Positions 1,143 to 36,927 of a DNA stretch of 64,000 bases are shown here, piece by piece. The stretch is from the NCBI GenBank assembly GCA_947631905.1, contig CANRND010000002.1:1-64000 (forward strand), read 5' to 3'. The position numbers were made by a program, and so were the translations under genes. Positions within the stretch are counted from its first letter, which is position 1. Every line of letters starts with the position of its first letter. Under the pieces are notes generated by a model. The model made no database searches, was not told the DNA's origin, and saw only the letters and a program-made list of their open reading frames with translations. The stretch comes from an uncultured Clostridia bacterium (GTDB taxonomy: Bacteria; Bacillota; Clostridia; Christensenellales; Borkfalkiaceae).

Positions 1143-4100
1143 TTATTCGCCGTCTCCCGACGCCGCGTCCTTATCCCGCTTGCGTTTGGAAGCTACGACG
1201 CCGATCGCCGCGCCGAGCAACGCCACCTGCACCACAAGGAGCATGATACATGCCGTGATGTCGAGCGGCTCTTCTTCCACATAGATGGGATATACGTCGT
1301 CGAGACCGTACCAATTCTGCGTTTCCTCTACGGTGACGCGCGCGTAGTACGTTCCCGCGGGCTGTTCGGAGATGTCGCCGTCGAGCGGCTGCGTGCAAGC
1401 CTCGTCGTAGTAGTATGCGATCGTCGGCTCACCGAACTTCGCAACGGGGCCTTCCACGTCGTTCACCGTATTGCCGAACTCCACGATCCACGCGTTCGGA
1501 GCTTTGATGATGTCCGCATGCAGGACGATCTCGGAAAGTTCGACGTTTCCTGCATCGGGGCCTTCGAGTTCGAGCTGTACGTAGACGCGTTTCGCCGTAC
1601 CGACGTTCTCGTCTTCGAAGCGTGCGGTGTAGCCCTTCACGCTCGCGTTGAAGCCGCTCAGCCAGCCGTAGCCGAGGACGGTGATCTCCGCGTCGGTGGT
1701 GCCGTCGTATACCTTGTCGAGCGCTTTAAGATATCTGCCCCATCCGCCATCGCCGTTCGGATCGATCGTCGCTTTGCGGATGTCCGCAGACAGCGTGAGC
1801 GTATCCTCTTCAAGGAAGTAATTCGTTGCGTCTTCCCCGAGCAACAGCACGAGCGCGGGATCGATATGCACAGTCACGGGTTTATCCGTTCCCACATTCG
1901 CATCCGCAAACGCGCCGCTCAGCAAGTTGTAATCCCCAGTCACCTTATCGCCGAAGTAGAGCGTGACGAGCGTTGCGCCCGAGAAGTCGAGCGTGGCGAG
2001 CGTGCCGCCGTCAAAGACCTTATCGTTTGCCGCGATCCCCTCTACATGGAGTCCGCGGGGAGCGACCGTGAACGTTGCGATGAGACGTTCGCCCGCATAG
2101 AGTTCCCACGTACCCGCGTCGAGATCGGGGGTAAGGTATTCGCTAAGGGCCTTGAACAGACTGGTGTCCGTCAGGGTGAAGTCGATGTGCGATTGCGCGC
2201 CCGTCGATTTTGTCAGTTCGAGACGGAAGCTGCCTGTAACGTTCGCCTGCGGCGCGTGGAACTGCTTGTCGGCGGGATCGGCGTACGTCCATCCTTCGAT
2301 CTGTGCCGCCACGCCCCAGACCGCGTACAGTTCGATGAGGCCTTTGCTATCGGCAGGAACGGGATACGTCGTGGTATAGAGGCCGTCCGCCGCCACGGCG
2401 AGAACGCCTGCAAGGCTCTTATCGAGCGTCCAGCCGAGGAAAGTAACATAGTCCTCTGCCTCCGCCTGTACATCGGGAAGAAGCGCATTCTGCCCTGCCG
2501 TGTAGGCGGTATCGGAGGGCATGCTCTGCGCATATCCGAGCGGATCGGCAAAGTGGATGACGTTGTCCTCCCAATCGGGCGTGCCGTTGCCGTTCACGTC
2601 GACGCCCCATACCGCATAGAAGTCGATATACTTGCCGTCTGCGTCTACGGCGCTCACGGTGTAAGCGTTCGTCAGTCTGCCGCCGTCGAGATACCTCGCG
2701 CTCGCCGCATAGTAATTTGCGGAAGTGGGATACCCTTCGGTGTAGAGGAAGTTCATGGGATCGTCGAAGTCGCGCGTCCAGCCGATGAGGGTGTACGTGA
2801 CGCCGCCAGACGTGAGCGACATTTCGTCGGAGAACGTATAGGTCTCGCCCGCCTTCAAAGTCACTCTGTCGGGCATGTGCGCGGAGACGCCTTCCGCACG
2901 CTGGGTGAAGCGGAGCGTGAAATCGTCCGTCCAATCCGGCTTTTCGTTGCGGTTGCCGTCTACGCCCCAGACCGCGTACATGGTGATGACGCGGTAGCGG
3001 GAATCCGAGAACTTCACCGTGTAAGGCCAATTTACGAGCTTGCCGCTGACGGCGCTGCCCGGATCGTCGAGATAGAGGTCTCCCGCAACCGTACGGTCGA
3101 ACGTCCAGCCGAACAGAACGTAATTCCTGCCGTTCACGGTCACCGAGCGGGTGGCGGGTTCCGTTACGGAATCGCCCGCTTTGAGGCCGCGACGCCGATC
3201 GAGAAGCGATTCGGGGCCGAACAGAGAGTAAAGTTCGAGCGTGTAATCCTCCGACCAGTCGGGGTTATCGTTTTCATTGCCGTCGATTGCCCATACCGCA
3301 TGCAACGTGATCACATTGCCGACTGCATCCGCGCCGTTGACGCGGTAGATACTGCTCAGATCGAAGTATTTGATCGTCGGCTCGTTTGTGAACAGATACG
3401 AGCTTGCGCTTTCGAGCGTCCATCCGATGAGAATGTAGCGCACGCCATTGTGCGAGATACTGACAACGGTATCTACGCCGAGCGCGATCTCCATGCCCGT
3501 CAGCTGGTTTTCGATGCTTCTGAATATCCTGGAAGTATCCCCTGACGTGAGACGGTCGTTCGTATCTTTTACGAATTTGACCGTATAGAAGTTTTCTTCC
3601 CAGTCGGGCGTGCCGTTATGGTTGTGGTCCTTGCCCCAGACCGCGTACAGCACGATCGTGCCGTCGCCGTCGGCGTCGTCTGCCGCAGACACGGTGTAAC
3701 TGCTTCCCGCCGCCAAATATGTGATTTCGGGTTCTGCCGTGTAGAGATAATTTTCACTTTCGTCGCGGTCGAGCGTCCAGCCGAGGAGCATGTAATGTTC
3801 GCCGTCGGGCGTATCGAGGGTGAGCGCGCCGAAGTCGAGGGAAACAATGCTGTTCACCGTGCGGTTCTCTTCCTCGGCGGGCATTCCGCTTGCCGTGCCG
3901 CCCGCCTCATTCACGAAGCGTACCATGAACAGATCGTTCCAGTCGGGCGTGCCGTTGCCGTTGGCGTCGATGCCCCATACCGCATAGAGAGTGACCTTAT
4001 TTTCGCTGTCCATCTTGGCAAGATCGACGGGATAGCCGCTCTCCGCCGTATACACTTCGCCGCCCAACGCGCCCGAGAGGCTACCGAAAGCGGAAGCCGT

Positions 4101-7100
4101 GGTGAATGCGTAGTAAGGGGAAGCCGTAGGCTTGACGCCCGCCCAACCGATGAGGGTGTAACTCACGCCGCCGAGCTTCATGCTCAGCGAATATGCCGCG
4201 AGATTGACCGTCATGCCCGCCTGCACGGACACTTCGTCGGGCATTCCGCCGTTCACCGAGGCGTTATCCAAAACGGAGCCCTCCGTTGCGTTTTCGAAGC
4301 GCACTGCATAGTGGCGGGAGAAATCAGGCGTGCCGTCGTGGTTGTTATCCACGGCCCAGACCGCATACGTCTTGATCACATGATCCGCTGTCGCATAATA
4401 AGGATCGACGTTATCGCTGTTGAAATAGCCGTTGAGCGCGAGCAAGGTACTGAGATCCGAGCAGAGGTGCCAACCGGGTTCATACGTCCAGCCGAGCAAC
4501 ACGTAGTCGTCGTTCCCGATCCTCAAATAAGGAACACTCTCAGGCTTATCCTCGGGCATGTCGAAGAGTTCGCCGAGCTTCTTCTCCGTATTGCGGGTGG
4601 CGTTCACAAATGCCTCGGCCGTGATCGGTTCGCCCTTATAGGTAAGGGTATAATCGCCCGAATAGCTGTCTGTGGGCAGGAACTCGATCGTATAGAGTTC
4701 GGTCTCTTTCCAGTCGGGCGTGCCGTCGCCCTTGCCGTCGTTGTCTCGGTCAACACCCCAAACCGCGTACAGTTCGATGATACTGTCGCCGTCGAAATCG
4801 TCGGCCGCCGCGATGGTATATTTCTGCTCCGCACCCTCGGCCGTCATCTGCATGATCTTGGCAAGATCGCTTACGGAAGGCGTCTCCTCATAGAGGTAAA
4901 TGCCGCTATTGAGCGTCCAGCCGAACGCGGTGAAGTTCTTGCCGCCGAGTTCGAGTTTGAGCGAAGCCGCAAGAGCAACTGCGGTCCCCTCTAAGCCGCT
5001 TTGATCCGTAGGAAGCGATCCCGTCAACGTACCCGTATCCGTTCCCGCATGGAACCTGACGGTAAACGTCTCGGCGTAGTCCGCCTTGCCGTTGCCGTTG
5101 CCGTCTTTCGCCCACACGGCGAAGAAGCGGATATACTTCTCCTCGTCGGCGTCGCCCGCCTTTACGGTGTAGCGCACGCCCGCCTCGAAGAAGTTATCTC
5201 CCTCGGGAGCTGCCGTTACGATCTCGCTCGGACCGCTGCGCCGCCAGCCGACAAGGGTATACCGGGTCGTTACGCCATCTTTCGTGATTTCAAGCGCGTT
5301 CGAAGCGAGAAGCACGATCTCCTTGTCCGCCTGCACGCCTGCCAAAAGGTAAGGAAGATTATTGCCGCCGACAAGTTCGTCCTCTTTAAGGCCATTGACA
5401 AATTCCACATAATAGAGCGTCTCTTCCCAATCGGCAATTCCGCTGTTGTTGGAGTCGAGACCCCAGACCGCGTACAGCGTGATGAGATTCTCGTCCCCTA
5501 TCCGCGTTGCGTTCTCCGCGGCCACGGTGTAGCTGTCTTTGAGGATCGCAAAGTCCGAAGGAGCTTCGTCGTAGATGTGGCTACCATCTTTCGTCGTCCA
5601 GCCGACGAGGACGTAGGTATTGGCGCCGACCGTAATGGAAATGCGCGAGCCGCTCAAACTGACGGTCAATCCGTTGACGATGTCGCCGACTTTCAATCCT
5701 GTGGTCTTAGAGCCGAAGAGACCAACGCCGCCCGTCGGTTTCACGCCGGAGCCGTTTTGGAGTTCGACCGAGAACAGGTCGTTCCAATCGGGCGAGCCGT
5801 CCTTGTTGCTGTCAATCCCCCAGACCGCGTACAGCATGATGTTGTTCGTCGCGTCTGCGTCGCTTGCCCGCACCGTATAGGTGTCGGTGTACAGAACGTA
5901 CGTGGGAGCGGTTTCATGGAGATGCGCTCCGGACGTGAGCGTCCAACCGATCAAGACGTAGGTCTTGCCGTTCAGTTCGAGGGAATAATTCATCTCAAGC
6001 GAAACTTTGTTCCCGCTCTCATCGAGAAGCTTCTCGCCGCTTATGGGTGGAACCGTGGGCATGGCTTCGGGGGTACTCGTGCCGCCCGATCCGTTGGAGA
6101 AAGTCACCGTGAACTCCTCGGTATAATCGGGCATCTTGTTGCCGCCGCCGCTCCGGTTGTCGTCTACCCCCCAAACCGCATACAGGGTGATGACGAAATC
6201 TTCCCCGAGGCCGTCTACTTCATCGTCTTTCGCCTTAACGGTGTACGTATCGCCCGCGACGAGAGACGACTTGATCTCATCGTAATCGCTCGCGGACGTG
6301 CAGAGGTAGGTCCCCTTTGTAAGCGTCCAGCCGAGGAGTTGATAGGTGTGTTCGCCCGAGACAAATCTACAATCCGCATATGTGCTGAGATTGACCGTAT
6401 CGTCCGTGAGCAGGTAGGTATACGTTGCGGGCAACATGCCGTTCTTTTCGGCGCCTTCTGCGTCCGCGCCCGCAACGAGCTTCACGATATAGGCGTTCTC
6501 CTCCCAATCTGGAATGCCGTTGCCGTTCGTATCCGCTCCCCAAACCGCATACAGAGTGATGTGGAGATCGGCTTCCGAGCTGTCGAGAAGGTCGTGCGCC
6601 GCGTTCACGGTGTAGCTGTCGCGGTAGACGGTGATATCGGGCATCTTGCCGTCTTTGCTCAAACTGTCGTCCTTTTCCGTCGTCCAGCCGATGAGAAGAT
6701 AGGTGATCCCCTCGTGCGTAAGCGAAATGCGCTTATCTACCTTGCTGTAATAGCCGTCGCCGAGCGTAACGCTGTTGCCGCGGAGTACGCCTTCGAACTT
6801 CTTGCCGAAGAGATCCTCCCCGCCCGTAACGGGATCGGTGTAAACGTTTGCAAGTTCAACAGTGTAGGTATCTTCCCTGAAATCGGCCTCGTCGTTGGAG
6901 TTGGTATCCTTTGCCCAGACCGCATAGAGAGTGATTACCTGCTCGTCGTCCGCATCGCTCACTTTTAAGGTATACGTGTTTCCTGCGGCGATGAAAGTTA
7001 CCGCTATCTGTTCGCTTTCTACTACATAACTCGTAAGCGCAACGGTGGACCAACCGACAAGGACGTATCTCACGCCGTCTTTCGTCATTGCGGAGACCGC

Positions 7101-10100
7101 AGGACCGGGGATCTCGCTACCGACGTCTTGGTTGCGGATCACAAACAAAAGTTTCGGCGTTCCCGTTTCCTCGGCGTTGACAAAGTTCACGGTGTAACTC
7201 TGCTTGTAGTCGGGTTCTCCGTCGCCCGTGCCGCCGTTTTCCGTATCGGCCGCCCAAACGGCGTAGAGTGTGACGTCTGCGGTCACTTGATAGCGTTCTC
7301 CCGTTGCGAAGAAAGATACGGTAGGCGCGCCCATCGTGCAGTAACCCGCGGGGTCGCTCAGTTCCACCGTCGTCCAACCGACGAGCAGATACTTCACGCC
7401 TTCCGCCGTCAAGGTGACGGGCGTACTGCTTTCGAGCGTGACGGAAGTATTCGCAAGGATGCCATCGACCGTCTTCGTAAACGCGGTTCCGTCGCCCGTC
7501 CAACCTGCAACTTCGCCTGCCGCCGAATTTTCATAGGTGATGGTATACTTCTCGTCCGCGTAGTCGGGCGTGCCGCTGTTGTTCTTATCGCATGCCCAAA
7601 CCGCGTAGAGAGTGATAACTTGCTTGCCATCGACCTGCGCGGCGTCTTTGGAAGCGACCGTATAGCTTCCGCCCGCCGCAACATACCAACTATCCGTAAA
7701 TTCGGGTGCGGGATCGGAATCAAAGAGATATGTTGCCAAGCCGCTCTTCGTCGTCCAACCGACGAGAACGTAAAGCGCTTTTTCCGTCGTTGCAAACGCG
7801 TAATCTTTCAGCAGGGTGACTTCCGTACCAACCGTAAGGCTGTTGATGGTGTAAGGCAGATCGTTCGGGGTAGGCGTGCCGTCCGCCGCACAGGTAAACC
7901 TGACGGAATAGGTCTGCTTGTAGTCGGGTTCTCCGTCGCCCTTGCCGCCGTCGTTATCCGCCGCCCAAACGGCATGGAGCGTGATGACGTTCCCGATTGC
8001 ATCATCTGCGTCCACGACATACTTTCCGTCTTCGAGTTTGACGGTCGGTTCGCCCGCAAAGTAGTAGTCTTTCGCCGTTTCCGCCGTCCAGCCGACGAAC
8101 ACGTAATTCACGCCGTCTTTTTGAGCGGTCTTTCCGTCAAGGTCTATCGGCAAAGTCACAGTCGTGCCGCTGAGATACGTCTTATCGTCCTTAGGCGCCG
8201 TGACGCCGTCCGCGTTCGTCTCGTAGATGATAGAATACTTTTCGTCTTCCCAGTCGGGTTCGCCGTTGCCCGTGCCGTCGTTGTTCATGTCGATCGCCCA
8301 AACGGCATGGAGCGTGATGACGTTCTTCGCGTCTACTTTCTTCGCGTCCGCGCCGTTTACGGTGTAGCTCTCGCCCAAGAGGGTCCCCGCTTTGGGTTCC
8401 TCGGTGAGGAGATAGCTATCCAACGTCTGCAACGTCCAACCGAGCAGGACGTAGTGCTTTTCTTCAACGTCGAGAGTGTAGCCCGTAGGCAACTGCACGG
8501 AAGAGCCGAGGTCGAGCAAGAGGTCTGCGGGAAGCGCAAACGGTTTCAACTCGCCGCCTGCTTTGCCTTGATCGTAATGAACGATGTACTGATGCAGGAA
8601 GTCGGGTTCGCCGTCGCCCTTGCCGCCGTCCTCGTTGTCGAGCGCCCAAACGGCGTAGAGGACAACGGGAGTTTTATCGTCTTTCCCGATCGTGTAGAAG
8701 CCGTCATAGAGCGTAAGTCCTTTATACACGGCAAGCGTTTCCACAAGCACATTCTTCTCGTCTTTCGTCCAACCGTAGAAGATATAATGTTTGCCGTCCG
8801 CCGAGGTATATACGGTCTCCGCGGGTGTAGGCGCGGTCGCCGTCATGCCGACGAGCAACGTGTTGCCCGCCGCGTCAGTCGTGACGTTCTTCCCGCTCTC
8901 TTCGGTGATCGCAGTCTGATAGGTATCTTTGAACGTGACGGTGTACGGGGTTTCGTCCCAATCGGGCGTGCCGTTGCCGTTGTTATCCTCTACCCAAACG
9001 GCGTAGAGGGTAATGAGCTTCGCCTCGTCCGCCGCGCTTACGGGGATCGAGAACGTACTGCCCGTGCGTTCATTATAGAACCCATCTTTGATCAATTCGT
9101 TGTAACTTTCCTCGCCGTCGATGCCGAAGAGGTAAGAGGTCCCCTCCTTGTTTTCGAGCGTCCAGCCTGCGAGCGTATAGCGTTTTACAAGGGTCGTAAT
9201 ATTCCCTTCTGCGTCGGTCTTGTACAGGCTCAGGGCATAGCCGTAGCCGTTCGAGTAAACGAGTTCGACCTTGTCGCCTTGCGCCGCCAAGCCGAAGCGG
9301 GACAGCGGCCAAGAAGGTCCGCTGATCTCATAGACATGATCATCGGGAGCCTTATCGCCGACAACATCCTGGAAGAGGACCGTATAGGTAGCCCAATCGG
9401 CAGTGTTATTGTTGTCGTTGTCGATCCCCCAAATGGCGTAGAACGTGATCTTGCCGTCCTTATCCGCATCCGCCGCAAGCACGGTGTATGCGCTGTCCGC
9501 ACCGTAGATGATGACGCTACCCGTGTTTTGGATATAGCTCTCCAAAGTATCGCACAGATAATTGTCACCTTTGTTCGCCGTGAGCGTCCAGCCCATGAGA
9601 ACGTAGTGCTTACCGTTCGCCTCTAACGTAGCGCCTTTGGGCAATGTCACCGTTTCGCCCACCGATTTCCCGGTCTCATCGGAGAATGTGGGAGTAGGAG
9701 TTCCCGATAGGGTCCCATTATCGTAATGGACGGTAAAGGTCTGCTTGTAGTCGGGTTCTGTATCGCCGTTGTCGTCTCTGCCCCAGATCGCGTAGAAAGT
9801 AATTACGCCGTTTTCGTCCGCGTCTTTGGGATCGAGGGTGTAAGAAGTCTCTTTCAGCGCGTCGGCATATCCGCTCTCATCGCTTTCATCTTCGCAGATG
9901 TGCGCCCCGGGCGTTCTCGTCCAGCCGAGGAGAGTATACTTCTTGCCGTCCTCCGTCGTGAGCGAGTAGCCTGTGAGCAACTCTTCCGTGGTGGGAGTTC
10001 CCTCTTTCCATTCGAGTTCGTCGCTGGACTGCGGCAGAGGGTTCTCCCCCTCCGCGTTGGTAGCCGTGCCTGTCGCGCCCGCTTCGAAGCGGAGCGTGAA

Positions 10101-13100
10101 TTTCTCCGCATAGTCCGGGGTGCCGTCCTCGTTCATATCGATCCCCCAGACCGCATGGAGGGTGATGATATGATCGGAATTTGCATCCTCCGCTTTGACG
10201 GTGTAGATGCCCTGCGCCTCAGTGAAGTCGGCAGGCACCTTTGTGCCGTCCTCGAAGAGGTAGCTCGTAAGCGCCTTTGCCGACCAGCCGATGAGCGTGT
10301 AATGCTTGCCACCGGCGTCGAGGGTGTAGTTCAAACGGGTGACGACTTCCGCGCCCACGGACTGATTTTCCACATCCTGCGGCAGATTGTCCGAAGCGAG
10401 CGTGCCTTCCACATCGTTATGATATGTTATGGTATAAGTTTGCGCGTAGTCGGGGATCTTATCGCCCGTGCCGCCGTTCTCGTTGTCCTCCGCCCAAACG
10501 GCGTAGAGGGTGATGACGTTCTCCTCGTCTGCAAGTTCAAGGACGTCGAGCGTATAGACATAGCCCGCCTCGAACATTCCGCCCGACTTCACATAGTTCC
10601 ATACGGGAGCGGAGTTGTAGAGGTGACTGCCTGCTTGCGTAGACCAGCCCACGAGGACATAGTGCTTGCCGTCCTTTGTTGCGGTGACGGTAAATGCGTT
10701 CTTCGAACCGTCCATGCCCGCAAGCGTAGCCGTAAGCCCTTCGAGAAGCTCTACTTCCTTTTCGGGGAGCGTACCGTCAACCGTAAGCGAACTGCCGTCT
10801 TGATAGACGATACTGAACTTCTTGTCTTCCCAATCGGGCTTGCCGTTGCCGTTTTCGTCGATGCCCCATACCGCATACAACTTGATGACATGATCGGAAT
10901 CCGAATAGCGCGTATAGAGGGTAAAGTTTTCTCCCGCTTTGGTGTAGTCCGTTTCGGGAACGTCAGCCTCCGACGTGAAGAAGTAGCCGCCCGTAAGCTC
11001 TTGTGCCGACCAGCCGAGCAGGGTGTAACGCTTACCCTCTCCCGTGAGAAGCGAGTAGCCCGTGCGGGTTTGAATTTCCGCGCCGATCTTTTGCCCGTTC
11101 AGCGTGTAAGGCAGATCGTCGGGCGAAAGCGTGCCGTTTTCGGGTTTTACGTATTGAACGGCATACTCCTGCAAATAGTCGGGAGTCTTATCGCCCTTGC
11201 CGTTCTCCTCGTTGTCCTCCGCCCAAACGGCATAGAGGGTGATGGTGTGTTTGTAGTCGCCGCCACCCGGGGACAAATTATCCTCGTCGAGCGTATACTC
11301 CGTGCCGACGGTATAATAATGTTTATCTTGCAAGCTCTTGGAAGTAGCGGGATCTTGATAGAACAGGTAGGCCGCGTCACCGTCCAACTCTGCCGCCGTC
11401 CACCCGACGAGCAGGTATCTGATCCCATCGACGGTGAGAGAATAGGTATACCCGCCGTCTTTGTCCTTGCCGGGCAGTGTTACGATTGCGCCTTTGAGCT
11501 GATCGTGTTCTGCAAGGGTTCCGAGAACTTCCGAGGTGAGATCGGTACCTGTGGTATGGCCCACTACCTCATAGATCACGTCGTAGCGGTCGAAATCGTC
11601 GTAGTCGGGCGTGCCGTTTTGGTTGGTATCGATCGCCCAAACCGCGTAGAGCGCGATCACGCCGTTCTCGTCGGCGTCCACAGGGTCTACCTTGTAGACG
11701 CGCATTTCGGCGGCTTCGAGATGGCAGTAGTAGAACTTGCTATTGTACTCGCCGTCGTAACGCCCGTACCGATCGGTAGAATTCGACTCGGTATCGGAAC
11801 CCCAAACATACTTTGCGTCTGCTTTCGTCGTCCAACCGATCAGGATATAGCTCACTCCGCCGATATTGGCGCGCAGATATTTCACATCCTGATCCGCCAT
11901 AGGATCGGTCACTTCAACGCCGCCCTGCAAGTCTTTTTGGGCCGCGGGCATGAACACCGCGCCCTCTAACGATACCGTGTTCCTGAACTCCACGGTGAAG
12001 TTCTCGGCGTAGTCCGCCGTGCCGTTGCCGTTTTCGTCGATCCCCCAGACCGCGTAGAACGTGATGGAGTATTGATACCCGTCCGTTCCCTCAGGTTTCG
12101 CGTCGTTCGAAGCGACTACATAATTGCCGCCGGCCGCGCAATACACCGCAAAGGACGGCGCGGCGTCGCAGAGATGACTGCCCTCTTGCGTGGTCCAACC
12201 GACGAGAACATACTTCTTGCCGCCGTCACCGGGGGTCGTAAGGGTGAGGGTCCCGTCCCGAACAAGCCCTTCGTCCAACGCAACGGTTTCCCCGAGCTTG
12301 TGGGCGCCGCCGTCTTTGGGCAGGTACCCCTCCTGCGAAAGCGTGCCATCGGTGCCGTTCTCATATTTGAGCGTGTACGTTTCCCTGTAATCGGGCGTTT
12401 CGTTGCCGTTGAGGTCGATGCCCCAAAGCGCGTAGAGGGTAATACAATCGTCTTTCACGTCGGACGCTTTCAGCTGGAAGCGTTCCAACGCGGCGTTATT
12501 TGCCGTGAACGTAGGCGGCGCGTCGTTGTAGAGATACTTCGTAGGAGTAAGGCTCAGGTCTTCCGTCGTCCAGCCGATGAGGACATACTCATTCCCGTTG
12601 ATTTGAAGACGGAATTTCTTCCCGTCCTCCGCGGTGTTCGACCAGTACGCCCACTCGCCGAGCCTGAACTCGGATCGCTTGGTATCATCCGTATGCACCG
12701 TTTGGTCGTTATAGGTCGGGATATTCAGCGTGCCGTCGGTTTTTGTATTCACGCCGACAAGCGTTCCTTCGCTCCCGTCGCCGAGCTTGAACTTGACGGG
12801 ATACTTCGTATCGTCCCAGTCGTAGTTGCCGTCGCCGTTGTTATCGAGCCCCCAAACCGCGTAGAACACGATACTGAGATCGCCCGTTTTCTCGCCTGTC
12901 GTCAAGTCGTCGGCGGCGTCCACGATGTAACCGTCGCGCTGGCCCGCTAAAACGAACTTTTGATAGGTCGCCTCATTCGATACGTCCTCTTCGACCAAAT
13001 AGAAGCTCTCGCTTGCGTTTTTCACGGTGGTGAAGCCGAGGAGGAGATACCTCTTCTGCGCGTCGCCTGCGCCCTTGACGAGGGAATAGAGACTGTTGCG

Positions 13101-16100
13101 GACGACGACCGAGGTGCCGATTCTCTGGTTCTTATAGATCAGATCGTACCACGCGGGGTCAATGGTAACGTCACTGGCGGCGGCGGTGGCGTCGTCGAGC
13201 TTGAACGTGACGGTAAATTCCTGCATGTAGTCGGGAACGCCGTTGTTGTTCGCGTCCGCAGCCCAAACCGCATTGAAGTCTACACTGCTACTGCTACCGT
13301 CCTCTTTTACGGGCGTGGTGTAGCTTCCCCCTACCGAATAGTACTTGTCGTTTCCGTAATACTCCGCGGGGGTTAGGTACTCTGCATTATATTGATAGAT
13401 GTACTCCTTATCCGTCGCGGTGGTCCAACCCACGAGGAGATAGGTGATCCCCTCTCTCGTGACTTTTACGGGATAGCGAGATTCTCCTTTCTCCGGGTCC
13501 GGGGAGCCATTATAGCCGGGAAGAGTGATCGTGCGGCCGCCGACAATGGTGGTCGAAGTTTGGCTCAGCCCCTGCCCGCCCTGATAGAACGGGAACGTCA
13601 TTCCGTCGACCGTAGGCGTCTCCGTAAACTCAACCGTGTTGACATATTGCAACGTAACCTGCGGGTCCTCCCAGTCGGCCTTGCCGTTGTCGTTCTCATC
13701 GAGCGCCCAAACGGCCCAGAGGGTGATGATCTGATCCTCTTTACTATCGGAATTTTCGTCGTCCGCCGCGCTCACGGTATAGAGATAGTCGCCCGCATAG
13801 AGCTGATTGTGCTTATGGCCCGAGTCCGTGTTGGGAGTAGGCGCAAAATCGGTGTGCAACGCCTCCAACGTGCTGTAAAGCCTTGCATTGTTGGGATCGG
13901 ACGTCCAACCCACGATGACGTAACGCCCCGGAACGGGTTTCACCCCGTCCTTATCGGTCATCTCCATAACTTCGATTTCGGCCTGGGTGAAAGTCACCGC
14001 GTAGCGGAAAGCGTTTTCCGTCGTCTCCGTGCCGGGCATTTCCGCGTTTTCCCCGCTGTAAAGCGGCATGTCGTTGAGCAGGTTGGCTACGGAGCTGGGC
14101 ATTAACACGTCGGTGAGTTTCTCGAGCGCGTCCTTATACTTGACGGTATAAGTCGTCGACTCCCAGTCGGCCTTGCCGTCGCTGTTCGTATCTTTCACCC
14201 ACACGCCGTAGAACGTGACGGTCTTGGTTTCCCCATCGGCGTCGGCCTTATCGATGAGATAATCGTTCCCCATGCCGTACACGGTTGCGCTCTTGAAGAA
14301 GTTCAGCTGTTCTACCGCTCCATCGAGGAAGTTGTCGGTGGCGTCTCCCGTCCAGTCGGTAGTCCAGCCGACGAGAACGTAAGTTATCCCCTTGTACTCA
14401 ATGGAATAATACCACTCACTTCCGTCTTCTCTCGTGGGCTTAGCGGGCAACGTGATCCAATCGCCCGCGTGCTTGCCCGCAACTTCTGCGGGGAACGTGG
14501 GAGTAGCCGTTTCTGTAATGTCCTTGCCGACGGAGTAGACTACTTTGAGTTCCTCCGTCCAGTCGGCAGTGCCGCTATTGTCGTTATCCTGCGCCCAGAC
14601 GGCGTAGAGGTAGATGTCGATCTCCGGCGTGTTTTTATCATCGCCCATGCCTTCGTCTTCGCAGTCCGAGTCTACCACTTTATAGAACTTTTCTACGGTG
14701 TTATCCTCGCTCGCCGCTGTGGACACATAGTAGATCTTTTGGTCGATCGCCGAGAAGTCACTGCTTTGGAAGAGCCAGCCGTTTTTATGATCGCCCGTAG
14801 GAGCTTGCCTCGTCCAACCGACGAGGACGAAGCTCGTTGCGCGGGGGGTGGCTTCAGGGTCTTTTTCTGCAAATTGCACCGAAATTCTGCGGGTCGTGAC
14901 GAGGGTAACGTCGTCGCCGTAGGAGATCTGCGTGTTCACGATGGGCAGGTTCGCCCCGGGCGATTTTTCGGTAACGCTGTCGTTTGTACCGACCGTAATG
15001 CCGTCCACAAAATGCACGCTGTGGCTGCGGTCCGCCGTAAGCCCGAACGATTCGGGATAGTACGTGCCGCTACCCTTTTGCGAGTCCTCTTTGGTCGCGC
15101 TGAGGTAGAAGTTCGTAGGATCGTGCAAGGTGGCTTTCATCCAATAGTTGCCGATGTCGTCCGAAGAGTCCCCGGGGAACGTCACGGCTTTATCAGATGT
15201 GTAAGTACCCTCGTTCCAGGTAAACGCTTCCCCGATCTTAAAGAACTCCACCTTGAAGAAGTTGTTTTCGTCCTGTGCGCCGCCCGTTACGGCCATCGTG
15301 AGCTTGCTCTTTAAGTCTTCGGGGCAACCCGGCTCCAAAGTCTTCCAATCAGGATTTTCCGTGCTGACTTGCAATTGCGGCGTTCCGCTCCCGTTCAACC
15401 ACGAGAACTTGATCGTGTACGTGCGGGTGCCTTTCTTCTTCAACGTGATATTCGCGTCGGTGACGGTGACGGTGATTTGCAGACGGTTCTTCGGATCGTA
15501 AACGAGGTTCACCGCTTCCATGAGAATGGTGAGCGCCGCCGCCGCAATGGTGTAAATCGCGCGTATGGAGGAAGTATCCGCCTCCGTTGCGCTCTTTACG
15601 AACTTAAAGTTCTGCGTGGAAAGTTGAAGCACCACGTCGTATGTGCCGACGTCCTCCACGAGGTTTCTCGAAGCAAGAATGGTCTTGAAATTGTAGTGCG
15701 TGGTTTCGTCGTCTCCGCGCGTGATGTAATAGTAGCCGCCTTTTTCCGCGTAGTCGCCCGGCGCGTCCGTTTCGCAAGCCCAACAATCCGTACCTACCTG
15801 CAATTTCTCGTCGTCTTTGTCGTCGTCTTTGAGGAAGTGGACGGTTGCGACCGTTGTGTCGCCTTGCTTAACGGTTACGGTGTAGCTCGCGCCCGTAAGC
15901 TCGATGCCCGAAGCGAAGAAGTCGAAATCGGCCACTTCGTCGAGATGTTCATAGCCGTCGTAGGCGGTTCTTGTGTAGTGTTGCGTTGCGGAAATCTCCA
16001 ACGGGGTGATGACGTAAACCGTTTTGGCGGCTTTCTTTTCCCCGATCGGAAGATCGCTTGCTTGCAAAGAATAAGTCGTTGCGGTAGCGTCTGTATTGTT

Positions 16101-31193: not shown

Positions 31194-31862
31194 ATGATAG
31201 ATTTAGGCGATTGGAATGAAGTCCTCAAACCCCTTTTTGCGGACGAACGCTATCTGAAAATACGGGAATTTTTGAAGTACGAATACTCTCACTATATCGT
31301 CTATCCCGACATGTACGACCTTTACAACTGCTTCCGCTACACGCCCTATGCGAACGTGAAAGCGGTACTTCTCGGGCAGGACCCCTATCACGAGCCGGGG
31401 CAGGCGCACGGGCTGTGTTTTTCGGTGAAAGAGGGCGTGAGAAAGCCGCCGTCCCTCGAAAACATGCTCAAAGAACTCAAAGATGATTTGGGGTTCGACC
31501 CGCCGCGATCGGGCGACCTCACAAAGTGGGCAAAAGAGGGGGTGCTTCTTCTCAACACTTCCCTCTCCGTGCGGGAACATCAGGCCAACTCGCACGCAAA
31601 TTGCGGGTGGAGCTGGTTCACCGACAGCGTGATCGAACTTCTGAGCAAGCAAAAGGAACATCTCGTGTTTCTGCTCTGGGGCGGGAACGCGCGCAAAAAA
31701 GTCCCCCTTATCGACAGAAGCAAGCACCTCGTTTTGGAATGCGCCCATCCCTCTCCCCTCTCGGCGTTTAACGGGTTTTTCGGGTGCCGCCACTATTCCA
31801 AAACGAACGATTATCTCGTAGCGCACGGGATCGCTCCCGTCGACTGGAATTTGAATGAATAG
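31194..31862 (+). CDS. ung: Uracil-DNA glycosylase, family 1
   Basis: 222 residues, normal length. Removes uracil from DNA. The water-activating motif GQDPYHEPGQAHGLCFSV (about residues 60-77), LLLNTSLSVREHQANSH, VFLLWGGNARKK and the DNA-intercalating loop HPSPLSA are all present. It follows luxS by 42 nt and precedes a lipoprotein gene by 10 nt, so it probably lies in one plus-strand transcription unit with them. Confidence 0.96.
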   Translation: MIDLGDWNEVLKPLFADERYLKIREFLKYEYSHYIVYPDMYDLYNCFRYTPYANVKAVLLGQDPYHEPGQAHGLCFSVKEGVRKPPSLENMLKELKDDLGFDPPRSGDLTKWAKEGVLLLNTSLSVREHQANSHANCGWSWFTDSVIELLSKQKEHLVFLLWGGNARKKVPLIDRSKHLVLECAHPSPLSAFNGFFGCRHYSKTNDYLVAHGIAPVDWNLNE

Positions 31863-31872
31863 GAGGAAATGT

Positions 31873-32757
31873 ATGAAAAAAACCGCATGTATGGCGGCCG
31901 CCGTGCTGTTTGCCGCGCTCGGCATATGTTGCGCCTGCGGCGAAAAGGAATCCGCGCCCATAAAGACCGAGGCAGAGCCGCAGTATACGGTCTCGGACGA
32001 ACATCTCACGCTGGACGCAAACGGCGATCTATTTACCTCCGCCGCGGTGACAAAACGGGAAACGCTTGACGGCAAGCTCTTCTATTGGCTCGGCTCATCC
32101 GTTACCTACGGCGCCTCTTCCGGCGGGGAGAGCATGGCGGAGTTTCTCTCCGCGCTCACGGGCTGTACGAGCGTGAAAGAGGCGGTGTCTGGGACGACGA
32201 TCTTCGACGACGGCGGAGACGGCGATTCGGGCGCAAAGTCCTATACCCGCCGCATGATAAACAGCACGGCGTTCGACAAGGAGGCCATCCCCGACGCGTT
32301 CATCTGCCAGATCTCCACCAACGACTGCACGAACAACCGCCTTACAAAGCGCGGCGAGATGCTCGAACGGGTCCCCCGCTACCCCGAGGACTGCGACCGA
32401 AGCACCACGCTCGGCGGCGTGGAGTACATCATCCGCTACGTGACGGATACATGGGGCTGCCCCGTGTACTTTTACTCGGGCGCTTACTTCGGCGACAGCG
32501 GCGCGCGCGCCAACTCCAACCCCAAAGGCTCGGAGTACGGAAAACTCGTGGAGCAGGTGAAAGAAATCGCGCAAAAGTGGTACGACGAAGGCTATGAAGT
32601 GAAAGTTATCGACCTGTACGGGGACGAAGATTTCAACGCCGCCGTATCGGACGAATACTACAAGTGGTGTACGAGCGACCCCATCCATCCGAAGAAAGCG
32701 GGCTATCTCAACTGGTGGACCCCCTACTTCGAAGCGTTTCTTCTGAACAACCTTTGA
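31873..32757 (+). CDS. SGNH/GDSL-hydrolase lipoprotein
   Basis: 294 residues. The start at 31873 has AGGAGG six nt upstream. A signal peptide of about 20 residues ends in a Cys-rich lipobox region (GICCAC), indicating a membrane-anchored extracellular protein. The catalytic pattern of SGNH hydrolases is visible: WLGSSVTYGAS (block I, Ser), ISTNDCTNN (block III-type Asn) and DPIHPKKAGY (Asp-x-x-His). Likely an esterase or deacetylase acting on surface or dietary glycan, but the substrate is not evident. The gene is closed by a strong hairpin. Confidence 0.85.
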   Translation: MKKTACMAAAVLFAALGICCACGEKESAPIKTEAEPQYTVSDEHLTLDANGDLFTSAAVTKRETLDGKLFYWLGSSVTYGASSGGESMAEFLSALTGCTSVKEAVSGTTIFDDGGDGDSGAKSYTRRMINSTAFDKEAIPDAFICQISTNDCTNNRLTKRGEMLERVPRYPEDCDRSTTLGGVEYIIRYVTDTWGCPVYFYSGAYFGDSGARANSNPKGSEYGKLVEQVKEIAQKWYDEGYEVKVIDLYGDEDFNAAVSDEYYKWCTSDPIHPKKAGYLNWWTPYFEAFLLNNL

Positions 32758-32769
32758 TCGGTGCAAAAT

Positions 32770-32810
32770 GGCGGCGCCCGAGCTATTTGCTCGGGCGCCG
32801 CCGTTTATTT
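32770..32810. terminator. Bidirectional terminator, left copy of an identical pair
   Basis: GGCGGCGCCCGAGC / GCTCGGGCGCCGCC with loop TATTT (32770-32802), then GTTTATTT. It lies between converging genes. The same hairpin, loop included, recurs at 34381-34415. Confidence 0.88.
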
Positions 32811-32833: not shown

Positions 32834-33478
32834 TTATGTTTGAAAGCAGATCGCGGGACGGGTCAAAAACCAGTCAATACTCGGGTCTGCCCTCAAACGG
32901 TCGTCGCTCGCGGAAATAAAACGAACTCCTCCATTATTCTCAACGGTACGGGTAAGCCAAGAGTGTGTCGTACGTTCCGAAGAAAACAGGCTTTTCCCAA
33001 AAGATTTAAGGTGCGAAAACATCTCCCGCAAATTTCCATTATCGCCATAATATTTAGCGTCTTCCAACCTCGCTGTTCTGTAATACTTTACACTTTGTTT
33101 GTGTGCATAGTCGCTTTCGTAGCATTTGCGCTGCGTGGGAGACAGATACCGATTGACCTCTTCCACACTCAAAAGAAAGACGTTGTCCCATGTGTCGTTG
33201 CCGACGCTGTTTGCAGAAAAATTCGTCACGATCCTCTTCTTTTCCGCACTCGTGAACGCATTTTGGTAGAACTCGCCGTTGAGCCAGCTTCTGATCTCGC
33301 TCTCCTCCCAAGTGATGTGTGGGGACTCCCACCCTCTCGAATCGAACGGACGGCCAAATTCCAGCCCGTGCGTACTCAACGCAAGCACGCAGCCATATCG
33401 GTCGGGTTCTTCGAGACAGACCCATTCGATCTCCTCGCCCTGCCATCTGCCAAAGTTGAACCGTTCACCTTCTAACAT
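32834..33478 (-). CDS. DUF6273-like protein
   Basis: 214 residues, no signal peptide. The pattern FGRWQGEEIEWVCLEE, then ALSTHGLEFGRPF, ITWEESEIRSWLNGEFYQNA and FTSAEKKRI, with a C-terminal VRFISASDD / RPAICF-type end, fits the DUF6273 domain, which is widespread in gut Clostridia and of unknown function. It is the last gene of the three-gene operon behind the 34103-34131 promoter and starts 14 nt inside the end of the JAMM gene. Base composition is visibly less GC-rich than in neighbouring operons, suggesting a separate origin. Confidence 0.7.
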   Translation of the reverse strand: MLEGERFNFGRWQGEEIEWVCLEEPDRYGCVLALSTHGLEFGRPFDSRGWESPHITWEESEIRSWLNGEFYQNAFTSAEKKRIVTNFSANSVGNDTWDNVFLLSVEEVNRYLSPTQRKCYESDYAHKQSVKYYRTARLEDAKYYGDNGNLREMFSHLKSFGKSLFSSERTTHSWLTRTVENNGGVRFISASDDRLRADPSIDWFLTRPAICFQT

Positions 33479-33911
33479 AATTGATCATCTCCTCGGGTTC
33501 TGATACCGCTTTTTTCAAACAGTTATAAAATACAAGGTTCCAAACGCCGTCTTGTTGTGCGGCGACCGCAAAATACAGCTCTTTGATCTGAGGATTCGCC
33601 GCAACGATTGCTTCTGCATAGTCAGTGTCCCCGCGGGAGAGCCGCAATACCCCGTTCGGGTGGCTGTGCGCGATCCCCGCAAAGGCGATCCCCTCCCGCG
33701 CCCATTCCGCAATGGCGGCATTGAGAAAGGAGACGTTCGGACGGTACTCCGTGGACGAGGTATGGTCCTCCGCCAGAAAGCGGCAGACCGCCCCGTCCCG
33801 CATTCCGAAAATACCCCCCGACTCCACGGGCGCACGGGAAAAGAACGCCTTCATTTCTTCGTAAACATCGCGCAAAATCTTCAACTTAGCTGTGATAATG
33901 GCTGCAAGCAA
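33465..33911 (-). CDS. JAMM/MPN-type (Mov34-PAD1, prokaryotic JAB) metalloprotease
   Basis: 148 residues if started at TTG 33911; an ATG at 33854 is an alternative. The zinc-binding JAMM motif is complete: Glu30 in PVESGGIFG, then HSHP (His82, His84) and Asp95 in LSRGD, giving the E...HxHx(10)D spacing. Such proteins are isopeptidases or peptidases, and in bacteria often act on ubiquitin-like or sulfur-carrier tails, but no such partner is adjacent. It overlaps the upstream Cys-rich gene by 26 nt and the downstream DUF6273 gene by 14 nt. It is cytosolic by sequence. Confidence 0.8.
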   Translation of the reverse strand: MLAAIITAKLKILRDVYEEMKAFFSRAPVESGGIFGMRDGAVCRFLAEDHTSSTEYRPNVSFLNAAIAEWAREGIAFAGIAHSHPNGVLRLSRGDTDYAEAIVAANPQIKELYFAVAAQQDGVWNLVFYNCLKKAVSEPEEMINYVRR

Positions 33912-34071
33912 TGTCGCTCGCCTTGCGGGTGTAGCTGTTGTAGTAACCGCACCAACACTTGCCGTAAGAGGTCTTTGCGGGATTGAAATAGGAACAGTCG
34001 CCGCAGTATGCGGTGCAGCATTTGCCTTCGGGCAATTTTACAGGTTTTTCTTTCGTGGATCGTGTTTTCAT
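33886..34071 (-). CDS. Cys-rich 61-residue miniprotein, putative metal binder
   Basis: 61 residues from ATG 34071, chosen because GGAGG lies 6 nt upstream; a longer version would begin inside the operator. It has seven cysteines: Cys18-Cys19, Cys23-x-x-Cys26, Cys39-x-Cys41 and Cys56-x-His58, which suggests one or two zinc or iron-sulfur sites. Lys/Arg-rich N-terminus. First gene of the operon that also encodes the JAMM and DUF6273 proteins. I do not recognise a named family. Confidence 0.75.
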   Translation of the reverse strand: MKTRSTKEKPVKLPEGKCCTAYCGDCSYFNPAKTSYGKCWCGYYNSYTRKASDIACSHYHS

Positions 34072-34102
34072 AATTTCCTCCAATAAAATAATATCTGTCT
34101 TA

Positions 34103-34131
34103 ATCATACATCATTTTATGATGTATGTCAA
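34103..34131 (-). promoter_or_regulatory. Perfect promoter of the Cys-rich/JAMM/DUF6273 operon
   Basis: Minus strand: TTGACA (34131-34126), 17-bp spacer, TATGAT (34108-34103). The whole spacer is covered by the palindrome at 34105-34127. Confidence 0.8.
34105..34127. promoter_or_regulatory. Operator-like palindrome between the divergent genes
   Basis: CATACATCAT-TTT-ATGATGTATG: perfect 10-bp arms around a 3-bp centre, positioned between and overlapping the -35 and -10 boxes of the minus-strand operon. A degenerate relative, TTTTACATCAGTTTGTGATAAAA (split as TTTTACATCA and TGTGATAAAA), is at 34135-34157, just before the XRE gene. The XRE protein is the obvious candidate ligand. Confidence 0.75.
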
Positions 34132-34164
34132 TGGTTTTACATCAGTTTGTGATAAAAAATACAT

Positions 34165-34374
34165 ATGGAGATCGCCAAAAAAATCGGCTATAACATAAAA
34201 CAAGCCCGCAAAGAAATGAAAATGACGCAAAGAGAAGTGGCGGAGCGGCTCATGATGACCCAACAACAGTACAGCCGCTTTGAAAACGGCGTGTTCGAAC
34301 TGAACTATGAACAGATCTTGCAGCTTTGCGCGCTCTATGAGATCACTCCCAACGATGTATTCGATATGAATTGA
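34165..34374 (+). CDS. XRE-family HTH regulator, single domain
   Basis: 69 residues, almost entirely a Cro/CI-type helix-turn-helix: IGYNIKQARKEMKMTQREVA then QQQYSRFENGVFELNYEQI. Such small proteins bind palindromes as dimers. It is transcribed away from the Cys-rich/JAMM/DUF6273 operon, and the operator-like palindromes lie between them, so autoregulation plus control of that operon is likely. No good Shine-Dalgarno precedes the ATG, so expression may be low. It ends just before the second copy of the repeated terminator. Confidence 0.85.
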   Translation: MEIAKKIGYNIKQARKEMKMTQREVAERLMMTQQQYSRFENGVFELNYEQILQLCALYEITPNDVFDMN

Positions 34375-34380
34375 ACAATA

Positions 34381-34425
34381 CGGCGGCGCCCGAGCTATTT
34401 GCTCGGGCGCCGCCGTTTATTTTTA
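34381..34425. terminator. Bidirectional terminator, right copy of an identical pair
   Basis: CGGCGGCGCCCGAGC / GCTCGGGCGCCGCCG with loop TATTT (34381-34415), then TTTATTTTTATT. Identical in stem and loop to 32770-32802. It serves the XRE gene and, on the other strand, clpC. Confidence 0.88.
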
Positions 34426-36927
34426 TTCTTCCGTAAAGGTGAGTTCGCCGTTCTCCTCGTCGATGATGACCGTGCCGCCGACGGGCAGGTTCCCCATCAA
34501 AATTTCTTCGGAGAGACGGTCCTCAATGAGCTTTCTTACGGTGCGCTTCAACGGCCGCGCGCCGTACTCCTCGCTGTACCCCTCGTCCACAAGTTTGTTG
34601 CGGGCGCGGTTGCTCACCTTGATGTTGATCTCCCGCTCTTTGAGCTGTTTTTGCAGGTTTTGGATGATCTTATCGCAGATGCGGGCGGCGTCCTCTTTGG
34701 AGAGCTTGTGGAAGATGATAGTCTCGTCCAGACGGTTCAAAAATTCGGGGCGGAACTTCTGCCTGAGCGCCTCCTGGATGTTCTCTTTCATCGTCTCGTA
34801 CTCGTTCTCCTCCTCCGCCGTGCGGAAGCCGAGCAGTCCGACCTCTTTCACCTGGTGCGCGCCGACGTTGCTCGTCATGATGAGTACGGTATTCTTGAAC
34901 GAGACGACCCTCCCCTTGCTGTCCGTGAGCCGCCCGTCGTCGAGGATCTGCAACAGAATGTTGAAAACCTCGGGGTGCGCCTTTTCGATCTCATCGAAGA
35001 GTACCACGGCGTAGGGTGTTTTGCGGATGCGCTCGGTGAGCGTGCCTGACGTGTCCTCATACCCGACGTAACCGGGAGGTGCGCCGATGAGTTTGGAAGT
35101 GGAATGCTTCTCCATATATTCGGACATATCGAGGCGGATCATCAGCCGCTCGTCCCCGAACAGGCTCTCGGCAAGCGCCTTGCAAAGGTCGGTCTTGCCC
35201 ACGCCCGTGGGACCGACGAAAATAAACGAACCGATGGGACGGTTGGGGTCTTTCAGCCCCGCCCGTGCGCGGCGGATCGCTTTCGCCACGGCAGTGACCG
35301 CCTCTTCCTGCCCCACGATACGCTCGTGGAGTTCTTCTTCGAGGTGCATGAGCCGTTCGCTCTCCGCCTCGGTGAGTTTGACGACGGGGACCCCCGTCCA
35401 GCTTGAAACGATGGCGGCGATCTCCTCCGCGCCGATGGAGAGGTGCGCCGAATTGCGCTCGCTGCTCCACTTCTCCTTGATCTCTCTGATCTCCGCCGTC
35501 AATGTGTCGATCTCCCGCGAAAATTCCGCGGCGCGGGAATAGTCTTTCCAGCCCGCCGCCTTGTCCCGCTCGGCCGTTGCGCGGGCGAGCCGCTCTTCGC
35601 GCTCCCTCAGCTCGCTCGGCCCCGTGTAGGCGAGGAGCCGCTGGTGGGAAGCCGCCTCGTCGATGAGGTCGATCGCCTTGTCGGGCAAGAAACGGTCGGT
35701 GATGTAGCGGTCGGAGAGCCTCGCCGCCGCCTCGATCGCCTCGTCCGTGATGACGATGCCGTGGTGCGCCTCGTATTTATCTTTGAGGCCGTGCAGAATG
35801 GTGATCGTATCCTCCACGCTCGGCTGGTCCACCGTGACGGGAGTAAACCGCCGTTCGAGCGCAGGATCCTTTTCAATGAACTTGCGGTATTCTTCGAGCG
35901 TGGTCGCGCCGATCGTCTGCAATTCGCCGCGCGCGAGCATGGGTTTTAAGATATTGGAAGCGTCGAGCGGGCTATCCGCCGAGGCCCCCGCGCCGACGAT
36001 GGTATGGATCTCATCGATGAACAAAATGATGTCCCTGTTGGCGATGATCTCATCCATGACTTTTTTAATGCGTTCCTCGAACTCGCCGCGGTATTTCGTC
36101 CCCGCGAGCATGCTCGTGATGTTGAGGGAGAACACCATTTTGCCGCGGAGCGGTTCGGGGACGTCCCCCGCCACGATCGCCCGCGCCAGCCCCTCCACGA
36201 CCGCGCTCTTGCCGACGCCCGGTTCGCCCACGAGAACGGGATTGTTCTTCGTTCTGCGAGAGAGGATCTGGATGACCTTTTCGATCTCGTTCTGCCGCCC
36301 GATGACGGGGTCGAGCTTCCCCTCCCGCGCCTTTTTGGTGAGATCGTCGCCGTGGCGCATCACCTCTTCGGGAAGGGTCCCCTGTTGCGCGTTCCGCGGA
36401 ACGGACTCCGCGGACGAAAACGCGTCCGGCGGCTCGTAAAAGCGGGGCGCGGAGCGAGGGACCTCGAAAAACTTGATCCGCTCGCCGTTCTCGTCCACGG
36501 GGAGAGCGATCTCCTCCGTGCGCTTTTTCAGCGCCGCAATGTCCGTCCCTATCATTTTGAGGATCTTGACCGCGAGACAGTCCTCCATCATGAGAATGGC
36601 GAGAAGGGCATGCTCCGTACCCGTGAGCGCCTTGTAGTTCCCGCCCTCCACGCTCAGTTCCACGGCGAGTTCCAGCACCCGCTTGGTGCGGGGCGTGTAG
36701 CCGTGGATGCGCGCGTTCCTGTCGATACTGCGCTTGAAAATGGCGACGTATTGGTTTTTATCGACCCCCGCCTCCATGAGCAGTTTCCCCGCCGCGCTGT
36801 CCTCCACGGCGATCAGCCCCATCATAAGATGTTCGCTGCCGACATAGCCTGTTTTGCAAGTCTTCTCCAACTCTTCCGCAAGTTCGATCGCCTCGCGCAG
36901 ATGGTCGGAAAAATGCGATGTATCCAT
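34423..36927 (-). CDS. clpC: ATP-dependent Clp protease ATPase subunit ClpC
   Basis: 834 residues, standard size. Hsp100 unfoldase that delivers substrates, including arginine-phosphorylated proteins, to ClpP. Visible order: two Clp_N repeats (about 3-140), AAA+ domain 1 with GEPGVGKS (about 230) and Walker B ILFIDEIHT, a middle coiled coil (about 420-480), AAA+ domain 2 with GPTGVGKT and VVLFDEIEKAHP, and the ClpP-docking loop in EVGLLGFRT. It is last in the DUF1653-mcsA-mcsB-clpC operon, 12 nt after mcsB, with AGAGGAGA before the ATG. Confidence 0.97.
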   Translation of the reverse strand: MDTSHFSDHLREAIELAEELEKTCKTGYVGSEHLMMGLIAVEDSAAGKLLMEAGVDKNQYVAIFKRSIDRNARIHGYTPRTKRVLELAVELSVEGGNYKALTGTEHALLAILMMEDCLAVKILKMIGTDIAALKKRTEEIALPVDENGERIKFFEVPRSAPRFYEPPDAFSSAESVPRNAQQGTLPEEVMRHGDDLTKKAREGKLDPVIGRQNEIEKVIQILSRRTKNNPVLVGEPGVGKSAVVEGLARAIVAGDVPEPLRGKMVFSLNITSMLAGTKYRGEFEERIKKVMDEIIANRDIILFIDEIHTIVGAGASADSPLDASNILKPMLARGELQTIGATTLEEYRKFIEKDPALERRFTPVTVDQPSVEDTITILHGLKDKYEAHHGIVITDEAIEAAARLSDRYITDRFLPDKAIDLIDEAASHQRLLAYTGPSELREREERLARATAERDKAAGWKDYSRAAEFSREIDTLTAEIREIKEKWSSERNSAHLSIGAEEIAAIVSSWTGVPVVKLTEAESERLMHLEEELHERIVGQEEAVTAVAKAIRRARAGLKDPNRPIGSFIFVGPTGVGKTDLCKALAESLFGDERLMIRLDMSEYMEKHSTSKLIGAPPGYVGYEDTSGTLTERIRKTPYAVVLFDEIEKAHPEVFNILLQILDDGRLTDSKGRVVSFKNTVLIMTSNVGAHQVKEVGLLGFRTAEEENEYETMKENIQEALRQKFRPEFLNRLDETIIFHKLSKEDAARICDKIIQNLQKQLKEREINIKVSNRARNKLVDEGYSEEYGARPLKRTVRKLIEDRLSEEILMGNLPVGGTVIIDEENGELTFTEE

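Follow-up and report, generated by a model that had tools for sequence, protein, structure and literature searches.

What kind of unit is formed by the XRE regulator, Cys-rich mini-protein, JAMM metalloprotease and DUF6273 protein encoded side by side at positions 32834 to 34374 of a 64,000-nucleotide stretch of DNA from an uncultured Clostridia bacterium (the window)? The first-pass annotation took the four genes for a candidate new system and pointed to ImmA/IrrE switches, in which a protease cleaves the repressor encoded beside it. We asked which of these genes belong together in other genomes and what controls them.

Layout and borders of the window cassette

All four predicted open reading frames, including the seven-Cys protein of 61 residues, are present and intact, with the XRE gene on the plus strand diverging from the Cys-rich, JAMM and DUF6273 genes on the minus strand. 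The features of the cassette and its surroundings are the following.

31855-32757, plus strand: GDSL-hydrolase gene, convergent neighbour on one side of the cassette
32764..32810, no strand assigned: bidirectional hairpin terminator, left copy of a 47-nt direct repeat (repeat pair 96% identical)
32834..33478, minus strand: DUF6273 protein, 214 aa (Pfam PF19789, 60.7 bits against a cut-off of 23.5), the third and variable cargo gene
33465..33911, minus strand: predicted stand-alone JAMM metalloprotease, 148 aa from the first TTG (by motif, model and Foldseek)
33886..34071, minus strand: 61-aa Cys-rich mini-protein, seven Cys, with a CxDC...C...C core and an LPEGK motif
34103..34131, minus strand: predicted operon promoter TTGACA-17-TATGAT, its 17-nt spacer inside the XRE operator
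34107..34125, no strand assigned: putative operator O1, palindrome TACATCA-N5-TGATGTA
34138..34156, no strand assigned: putative operator O2, two mismatches, 31 nt from O1 and just upstream of the XRE start
34165..34374, plus strand: single-domain XRE of 69 aa, predicted repressor (HTH_3)
34376..34422, no strand assigned: right copy of the 47-nt terminator repeat, in common with the convergent clpC-like gene
34423-36927, minus strand: clpC-like gene, convergent neighbour on the other side of the cassette

The lower GC content reported earlier was borne out, since the cassette has 48.6% GC compared with 60.2% in the clpC-like gene, 58.4% in the GDSL gene and 56.2% in the window as a whole. The operon had also been described as overlapping throughout, which holds for the JAMM and DUF6273 genes (14 nt) but is uncertain for the Cys-rich and JAMM genes, whose overlap depends on the JAMM start chosen; relatives point to a TTG near 33881, which would give 138 aa and follow the Cys-rich stop directly. 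Two kinds of element had been overlooked. One is the pair of operators in the intergenic region that separates the XRE gene from the operon; the other is the pair of 47-nt hairpin terminators that bracket the cassette, with an exact stem pattern that the genome contains nowhere else.

A rabbit-gut Clostridia MAG (L006), the closest relative that has a named record, carries the same four genes at the same chromosomal site, and its cassette is provided with its own matched hairpin pair, different in sequence from that of the window. To follow the site itself, ten genomes of the same genus were searched with the clpC-like protein. A uracil-DNA-glycosylase gene (Pfam UDG) adjoins the GDSL gene in the window, and in five of the ten genomes this gene lies 100-750 nt from clpC, leaving no room for the cassette there; no GDSL homologue was found at the site in these five, and only three of them have a hairpin at it. 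In the other five genomes the uracil-DNA-glycosylase gene fell outside the fetched stretch, and they are uninformative on the site.

Searches of 301 family, 396 order and 291 class genomes, together with a named genome collection (three loci) and phage records (one record), yielded 15 loci with a short JAMM frame, the window included, spread across the bacterial class. The cassette is supported as real and patchily distributed: of the 301 family genomes, five have JAMM matches at E<=1e-3, and one of these matches is a JAMM-ThiF fusion. The four-gene set recurred in part: a Cys-rich ORF adjoins the JAMM gene at all 15 loci, whereas a divergent XRE heads the operon at 11 and DUF6273 stands beside the pair at three (the window and L006, which are orthologous, and L044, which is independent). 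The four-gene system was therefore rejected as the unit, and the cassette consists of two overlapping conserved modules, the JAMM/Cys-rich pair and the XRE with its promoter.

The DUF6273 protein has no transmembrane segment by hydropathy in the window; its L006 counterpart matches PF19789 with 58.8 bits, and the genome of the window has four DUF6273 domain matches in three ORFs. In PMC10743442, DUF6273 is reported to resemble a C-type lectin domain or fold. The third gene of the window shares the PF19789 match with the DUF6273/C-type-lectin-like proteins treated in that paper, and differs from them in its lack of a transmembrane segment and in the confinement of DUF6273 to three of the 15 loci.

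A probable XRE promoter lock with putatively exchangeable cargo

Control of the cassette by the XRE through its operators is strongly suggested by their position. The protein matches HTH_3 well above threshold (E 2.6e-14; 53.4 bits against a cut-off of 23), and palindromes of the same class as O1 were found in L006, L002 and L022. One further perfect operator with a two-mismatch partner at the same spacing (G000:C1:122149-122198) is present in the genome of the window, flanked by genes for a paralogous XRE and for a protein of 144 aa predicted to have two transmembrane segments; no JAMM was found at this second locus. Other types of XRE, with other palindromes in the same 17-nt spacer position, occur in L007/L008 and L016, and a spacer palindrome with 5-nt arms was recognized by eye in L003/L004. 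L020 and L041 depart from this arrangement, with a palindrome next to or across the promoter rather than inside the spacer, and in L041 a 320-aa gene stands between the promoter and the JAMM/Cys-rich pair. The four JAMM/Cys-rich loci out of 15 in which no adjacent XRE was recognized are L018, L042, L043 and L044.

Between the window and L007 the JAMM proteins are 60% identical and the Cys-rich proteins 73-74%, compared with 20% for the XREs. A single MAG bin yielded both L006, with an XRE of the window type and DUF6273, and L008, with another XRE and a five-TM protein. Judging from these comparisons, both the XRE and the third gene can be exchanged around the JAMM/Cys-rich pair.

The promoter and operator were then combined into a 29-nt pattern, which was searched with up to three mismatches in the 301 family genomes and was detected at 52 places in 48 of them; the reversed pattern used as a control gave none among the matches listed. 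A divergent XRE with the same signature accompanies the pattern at 36 of the 38 places with at most two mismatches (one of the two exceptions being at a contig edge) and at 41 of the 52 with at most three. In all, 42 further XREs behind this pattern carry the QQxYSxFExG signature, and among the 43 XREs, those of L006 and L050 included, pairwise identity ranges from 43 to 97% with a median of 61%. Cargo was called at 31 of these 43 loci and none at 12, with the proviso that calls need a Shine-Dalgarno-like match and may err, and that at JAMM loci the Cys-rich protein was counted and the JAMM was not. The cargo count excludes these 12 loci, together with the 11 places at which the pattern lacks an XRE (nine of them with three mismatches); 35 cargo proteins from 31 cassettes fell into 28 clusters by BLASTP, suggesting that the cargo behind one and the same lock is mostly unrelated.

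A Pfam scan of 30 proteins, including three neighbours from JAMM loci and two proteins (L116 and L121) from places where the pattern has no XRE, gave no match for many of them. Among those recognized, there are leucine-rich-repeat lipoproteins (L104, L110 and L121), zinc ribbons with DUF4190 or transmembrane segments, a TIR/TPR protein as cargo of the XRE lock (L102), DUF6273 (L122), DUF6809 (L094) and LytTR (L109). A membrane or signal segment was predicted in 21 of the 35 cargo proteins by simple hydropathy, a proportion that has no background rate for comparison. Should the lock work as drawn, the 29-nt signature would give searchable access to dozens of functionally uncharacterized cargo proteins.

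Whether this diversity reflects exchange at fixed sites was examined in eight pairs from four sites (L045/L109; L095/L096/L097; L124/L125/L127; L087/L088). In all eight, the XRE-promoter segment and the right neighbour align and the DNA between them differs. Homology breaks off at +29 to +44 relative to the -35 element, which is not proof of a recombination point, because an end at the -10 element is also expected from selection on the XRE and promoter alone. On the left, the alignment continues past the XRE into the flank in five pairs, two of these being shifted, and fails to do so in L045/L109, L096/L097 and L095/L097; one cargo gene is common to L096/L097 and another to L095/L097. Two of the pairs, L045/L109 and L087/L088, oppose a cargo to an interval in which none was called and are not replacements: L109 conserves the XRE and promoter of L045 at 94% and lacks 998 nt with the Cys-rich gene, the JAMM gene and the repeats. 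In the same-site pairs either state, with or without a given cargo, may be the older. Across genera, L096 and L115 have flanks and promoter in common and different cargo, and L093 and L099 share only the left flank and XRE.

At the borders, direct repeats of at least 28 nt bracket seven of 29 XREs, compared with six of 188 control genes of at least 100 aa and with two of 109 genes in a second control of 60-120 aa. Five of the six are themselves cargo genes in these cassettes, and Fisher gives 4e-4 for the first comparison with them included and 3e-6 with them removed. The test drew on 46 loci, and the 29 XREs are those that a simple gene caller picked up; most of them have no bracketing repeat. 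The L107 repeat, of 124 nt, includes the last codons and the terminator of the neighbouring gene. Such border repeats are compatible with an insertion event that duplicated a terminator, or with a loss in which two terminators recombined. No recombinase or integrase was noticed by eye in the cassettes.

The same observations could be read as ordinary local regulation, with vertically inherited small XREs controlling whichever gene adjoins them and with normal gene turnover. Some sites do appear vertical, as L104/L106 align throughout (85%) and have the same cargo, L123/L126 align into theirs, and the window and L006 occupy one site. Also in keeping with local regulation, no vehicle is known: viral contigs contained no relatives of the JAMM, the Cys-rich protein or the XRE, plasmids contained no JAMM and only two XREs (44 and 46% identity), and the phage collection gave a single 4-kb record, L016 (MT839708), filed as 'Bacteriophage sp.', in which the genes around the XRE/JAMM/Cys-rich set look chromosomal, one being a serine dehydratase by Pfam. 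On these grounds a phage or plasmid origin was rejected. One further match from the viral search, L039, covers 33 residues inside a 373-aa ORF and was taken for chance. Local regulation is nonetheless unlikely to account for the cassettes, given that the same XRE class has different cargo at the same site, that the same cargo occurs with unrelated XREs, and that bracketing repeats are enriched, including a copy of a neighbour's 3' end and terminator.

We consider it probable, from the sequence comparisons, that the window cassette exemplifies a repressor-locked slot for cargo, loaded in this case with JAMM, Cys-rich and DUF6273 genes. The XRE would bind the palindrome covering the -35/-10 spacer of a near-consensus promoter and so keep the downstream operon silent, and the second operator, at the XRE's own start, would let it repress itself. 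The cargo downstream of the start site varies between species and the XRE, promoter and neighbours stay, cargo presumably being exchanged by recombination. Failure of repression, through stochastic loss of the XRE, stress or entry into a cell without it, would then release a burst of the pair.

More tentatively, the fixed XRE and promoter could constitute a reloadable slot that serves the whole family of gut Clostridia, with cargo such as the JAMM/Cys-rich pair, zinc-ribbon membrane proteins, leucine-rich-repeat lipoproteins, the TIR protein and DUF6273 moved in and out by recombination in the interval from the transcription start to the downstream terminator and kept silent until the lock fails, an accessory reserve comparable to integrons but with a repressor, not an integrase, at its base. 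Integron gene cassettes, phage morons and accessory-gene hotspots likewise hold unrelated cargo at a fixed place, in some cases with border hairpins. They differ from the lock in that its platform is a repressor with a promoter, its border hairpins are terminators and no integrase was noticed. If the lock works as drawn, it would be a compact and reusable way to hold silent, exchangeable accessory genes. In the titles and abstracts searched, among which subscription journals are thinly covered, there was no description of lock cassettes or of the JAMM/Cys-rich pairing.

The JAMM protease and its Cys-rich partner

The JAMM motif reported as complete in the window protein (E30, H82xH84 and D95, to which S92 can be added) was confirmed, and its E, HxH, S and D residues follow the canonical spacing and are invariant in the 14 full-length JAMM sequences aligned, window included. 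The Pfam Prok-JAB score is just under the cut-off (23.0 against 25), and the best PDB sequence match reaches 24.7 bits. With an AF2 model (pLDDT 73.9), Foldseek returned 130 PDB matches at E<=0.001, and the 50 listed all have JAMM/MPN-type titles; E was 4.8e-5 for 5LDA and 2.5e-5 for 6FNO. The model thus assigns the protein a JAB/MPN fold, and it is a predicted JAMM/MPN+ metalloprotease. It has the fold and the complete motif in common with Pyrococcus furiosus JAMM1 (PDB 5LD9/5LDA, in complex with SAMP2) and an archaeal Rpn11 homologue (6FNO), and differs from both in being paired with a Cys-rich mini-protein.

This pairing is constant enough that the stand-alone JAMM and the Cys-rich mini-protein form a conserved module. 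The partners have 49-66 residues, four invariant cysteines in all 15 and an LPEGK-like motif in most, and both gene orders, Cys-JAMM and JAMM-Cys, occur. With the same motif, which was written after seeing the 15 members and is fitted to them, no Cys-rich ORF was found at the 19 loci of other JAMM matches or in 316 kb of the 49 loci L087-L135. The class of short JAMMs was likewise defined after the searches, and its frames (at most 190 aa) separate cleanly from the 19 others (at least 251 aa), of which only L005, L019 and L021 were identified, as ThiF fusions. The possibility that the JAMM is a stand-alone housekeeping gene, named earlier as the case against a cassette, was not seen among the 15 short JAMMs. 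Two matches of the Cys-rich search were dropped, L013 for its four internal stops and L015 as a chance match in a housekeeping region.

A predicted membrane protein adjoins the pair at eight of the 15 loci (L007, L008, L016, L018, L041, L042, L043 and L044, the last at 0.7 kb). At L018, a same-strand ORF upstream of the JAMM (2449-2835) contains two C-x2-C...C...C units and has no Pfam match, which suggests that the mini-protein is a repeatable domain. At L052, two TIR genes, one with MORN repeats (5778-6545) and one with NB-ARC and TPR (11108-13525), lie about 5 kb or less from a JAMM/Cys-rich pair, and a third ORF (13880-14485) is TIR-like by eye and has no Pfam match. At L054 a same-strand run of genes with mostly zinc-ribbon-like starts stands beside the pair (8021-15871), and the gene adjoining the JAMM has two DUF6273 stretches. 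At L022 the JAMM frame is cut short (1474-1665) and the XRE and Cys-rich genes are intact.

The mini-protein probably binds metal through its four cysteines and is most likely an adaptor or regulator of the protease; the DUF6273 protein might be a sensor or a target. An identity as a HiPIP-like iron-sulphur protein, suggested by a resemblance of the mini-protein to that family, was discarded, none of the five Cys-rich proteins scanned, window included, having a Pfam match, and its fold model was unusable (pLDDT 41). A constant partner offers a concrete place to seek the substrate or regulator of a bacterial stand-alone JAMM protease outside ubiquitin-like operons.

A small, patchy and tightly coupled pair found together at 15 of 15 loci, with an autoregulatory XRE layout, would also suit a toxin-antitoxin-like arrangement in which the JAMM is a toxic protease, the Cys-rich protein its inhibitor and the XRE an autoregulator, and the truncated JAMM of L022 beside its retained partner has the appearance of an antitoxin relic. 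We judge this improbable nevertheless, in view of the two gene orders, the four pairs without a recognized XRE and the other cargo behind the same XRE, which shows no comparable pair.

Cleavage of the XRE repressor by the JAMM, inducing the operon, was the switch suggested by analogy with ImmA/IrrE, and it lost its support. In the ImmR/ImmA and IrrE/DdrO switches an XRE repressor gene lies near a metalloprotease gene, as it does in the window, and a single-domain XRE without a sensor needs some means of relief. The window protease, however, belongs to another family (Prok-JAB and RadC were its only Pfam matches, with none to an ImmA/IrrE-type peptidase), has no constant XRE partner and lies behind the promoter presumed to be repressed, and the same XRE class precedes many cargos without a protease. 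Since the XRE has been swapped (20%) while the JAMM and Cys-rich proteins stay 60-74% alike, and since a single-domain XRE has its operator in the protease's own promoter, the protease is most unlikely to have been built to cut the repressor. Equally hard to credit is a ubiquitin-like role, with the mini-protein as a modifier matured or removed by the JAMM, for despite the closeness of the fold to Rpn11 homologues and the SAMP2-binding Pyrococcus JAMM1, no E1, E2 or ubiquitin-like gene was recognized when the ORF lists for the 15 loci, whose neighbours were Pfam-scanned in part, were read by eye, the 15 mini-proteins have no conserved C-terminus and no terminal GG, and no fold model was obtained for the mini-protein.

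Apart from the repressor-locked slot, the searches revealed JAMM-ThiF (E1-like) fusion genes in three genera (L005, L019 and L021; ThiF 100-104 bits), each accompanied at its locus by an ORF in which units of 12-19 aa are repeated in tandem, with the form EL(I/V)(S/A)DV(T/E)FHG(G/D).

L005, 891-1343 and 1450-2916: JAMM-ThiF gene and tandem-repeat ORF share the locus
L019, 959-1423 and 1501-3279: JAMM-ThiF gene and tandem-repeat ORF share the locus
L021, 71-codon frame on the plus strand and 1447-3360: JAMM-ThiF gene and tandem-repeat ORF share the locus

The repeat units resemble a poly-peptide precursor with GG-like ends, which the JAMM could cut and the E1-like domain could activate, and these loci are a candidate system in their own right.
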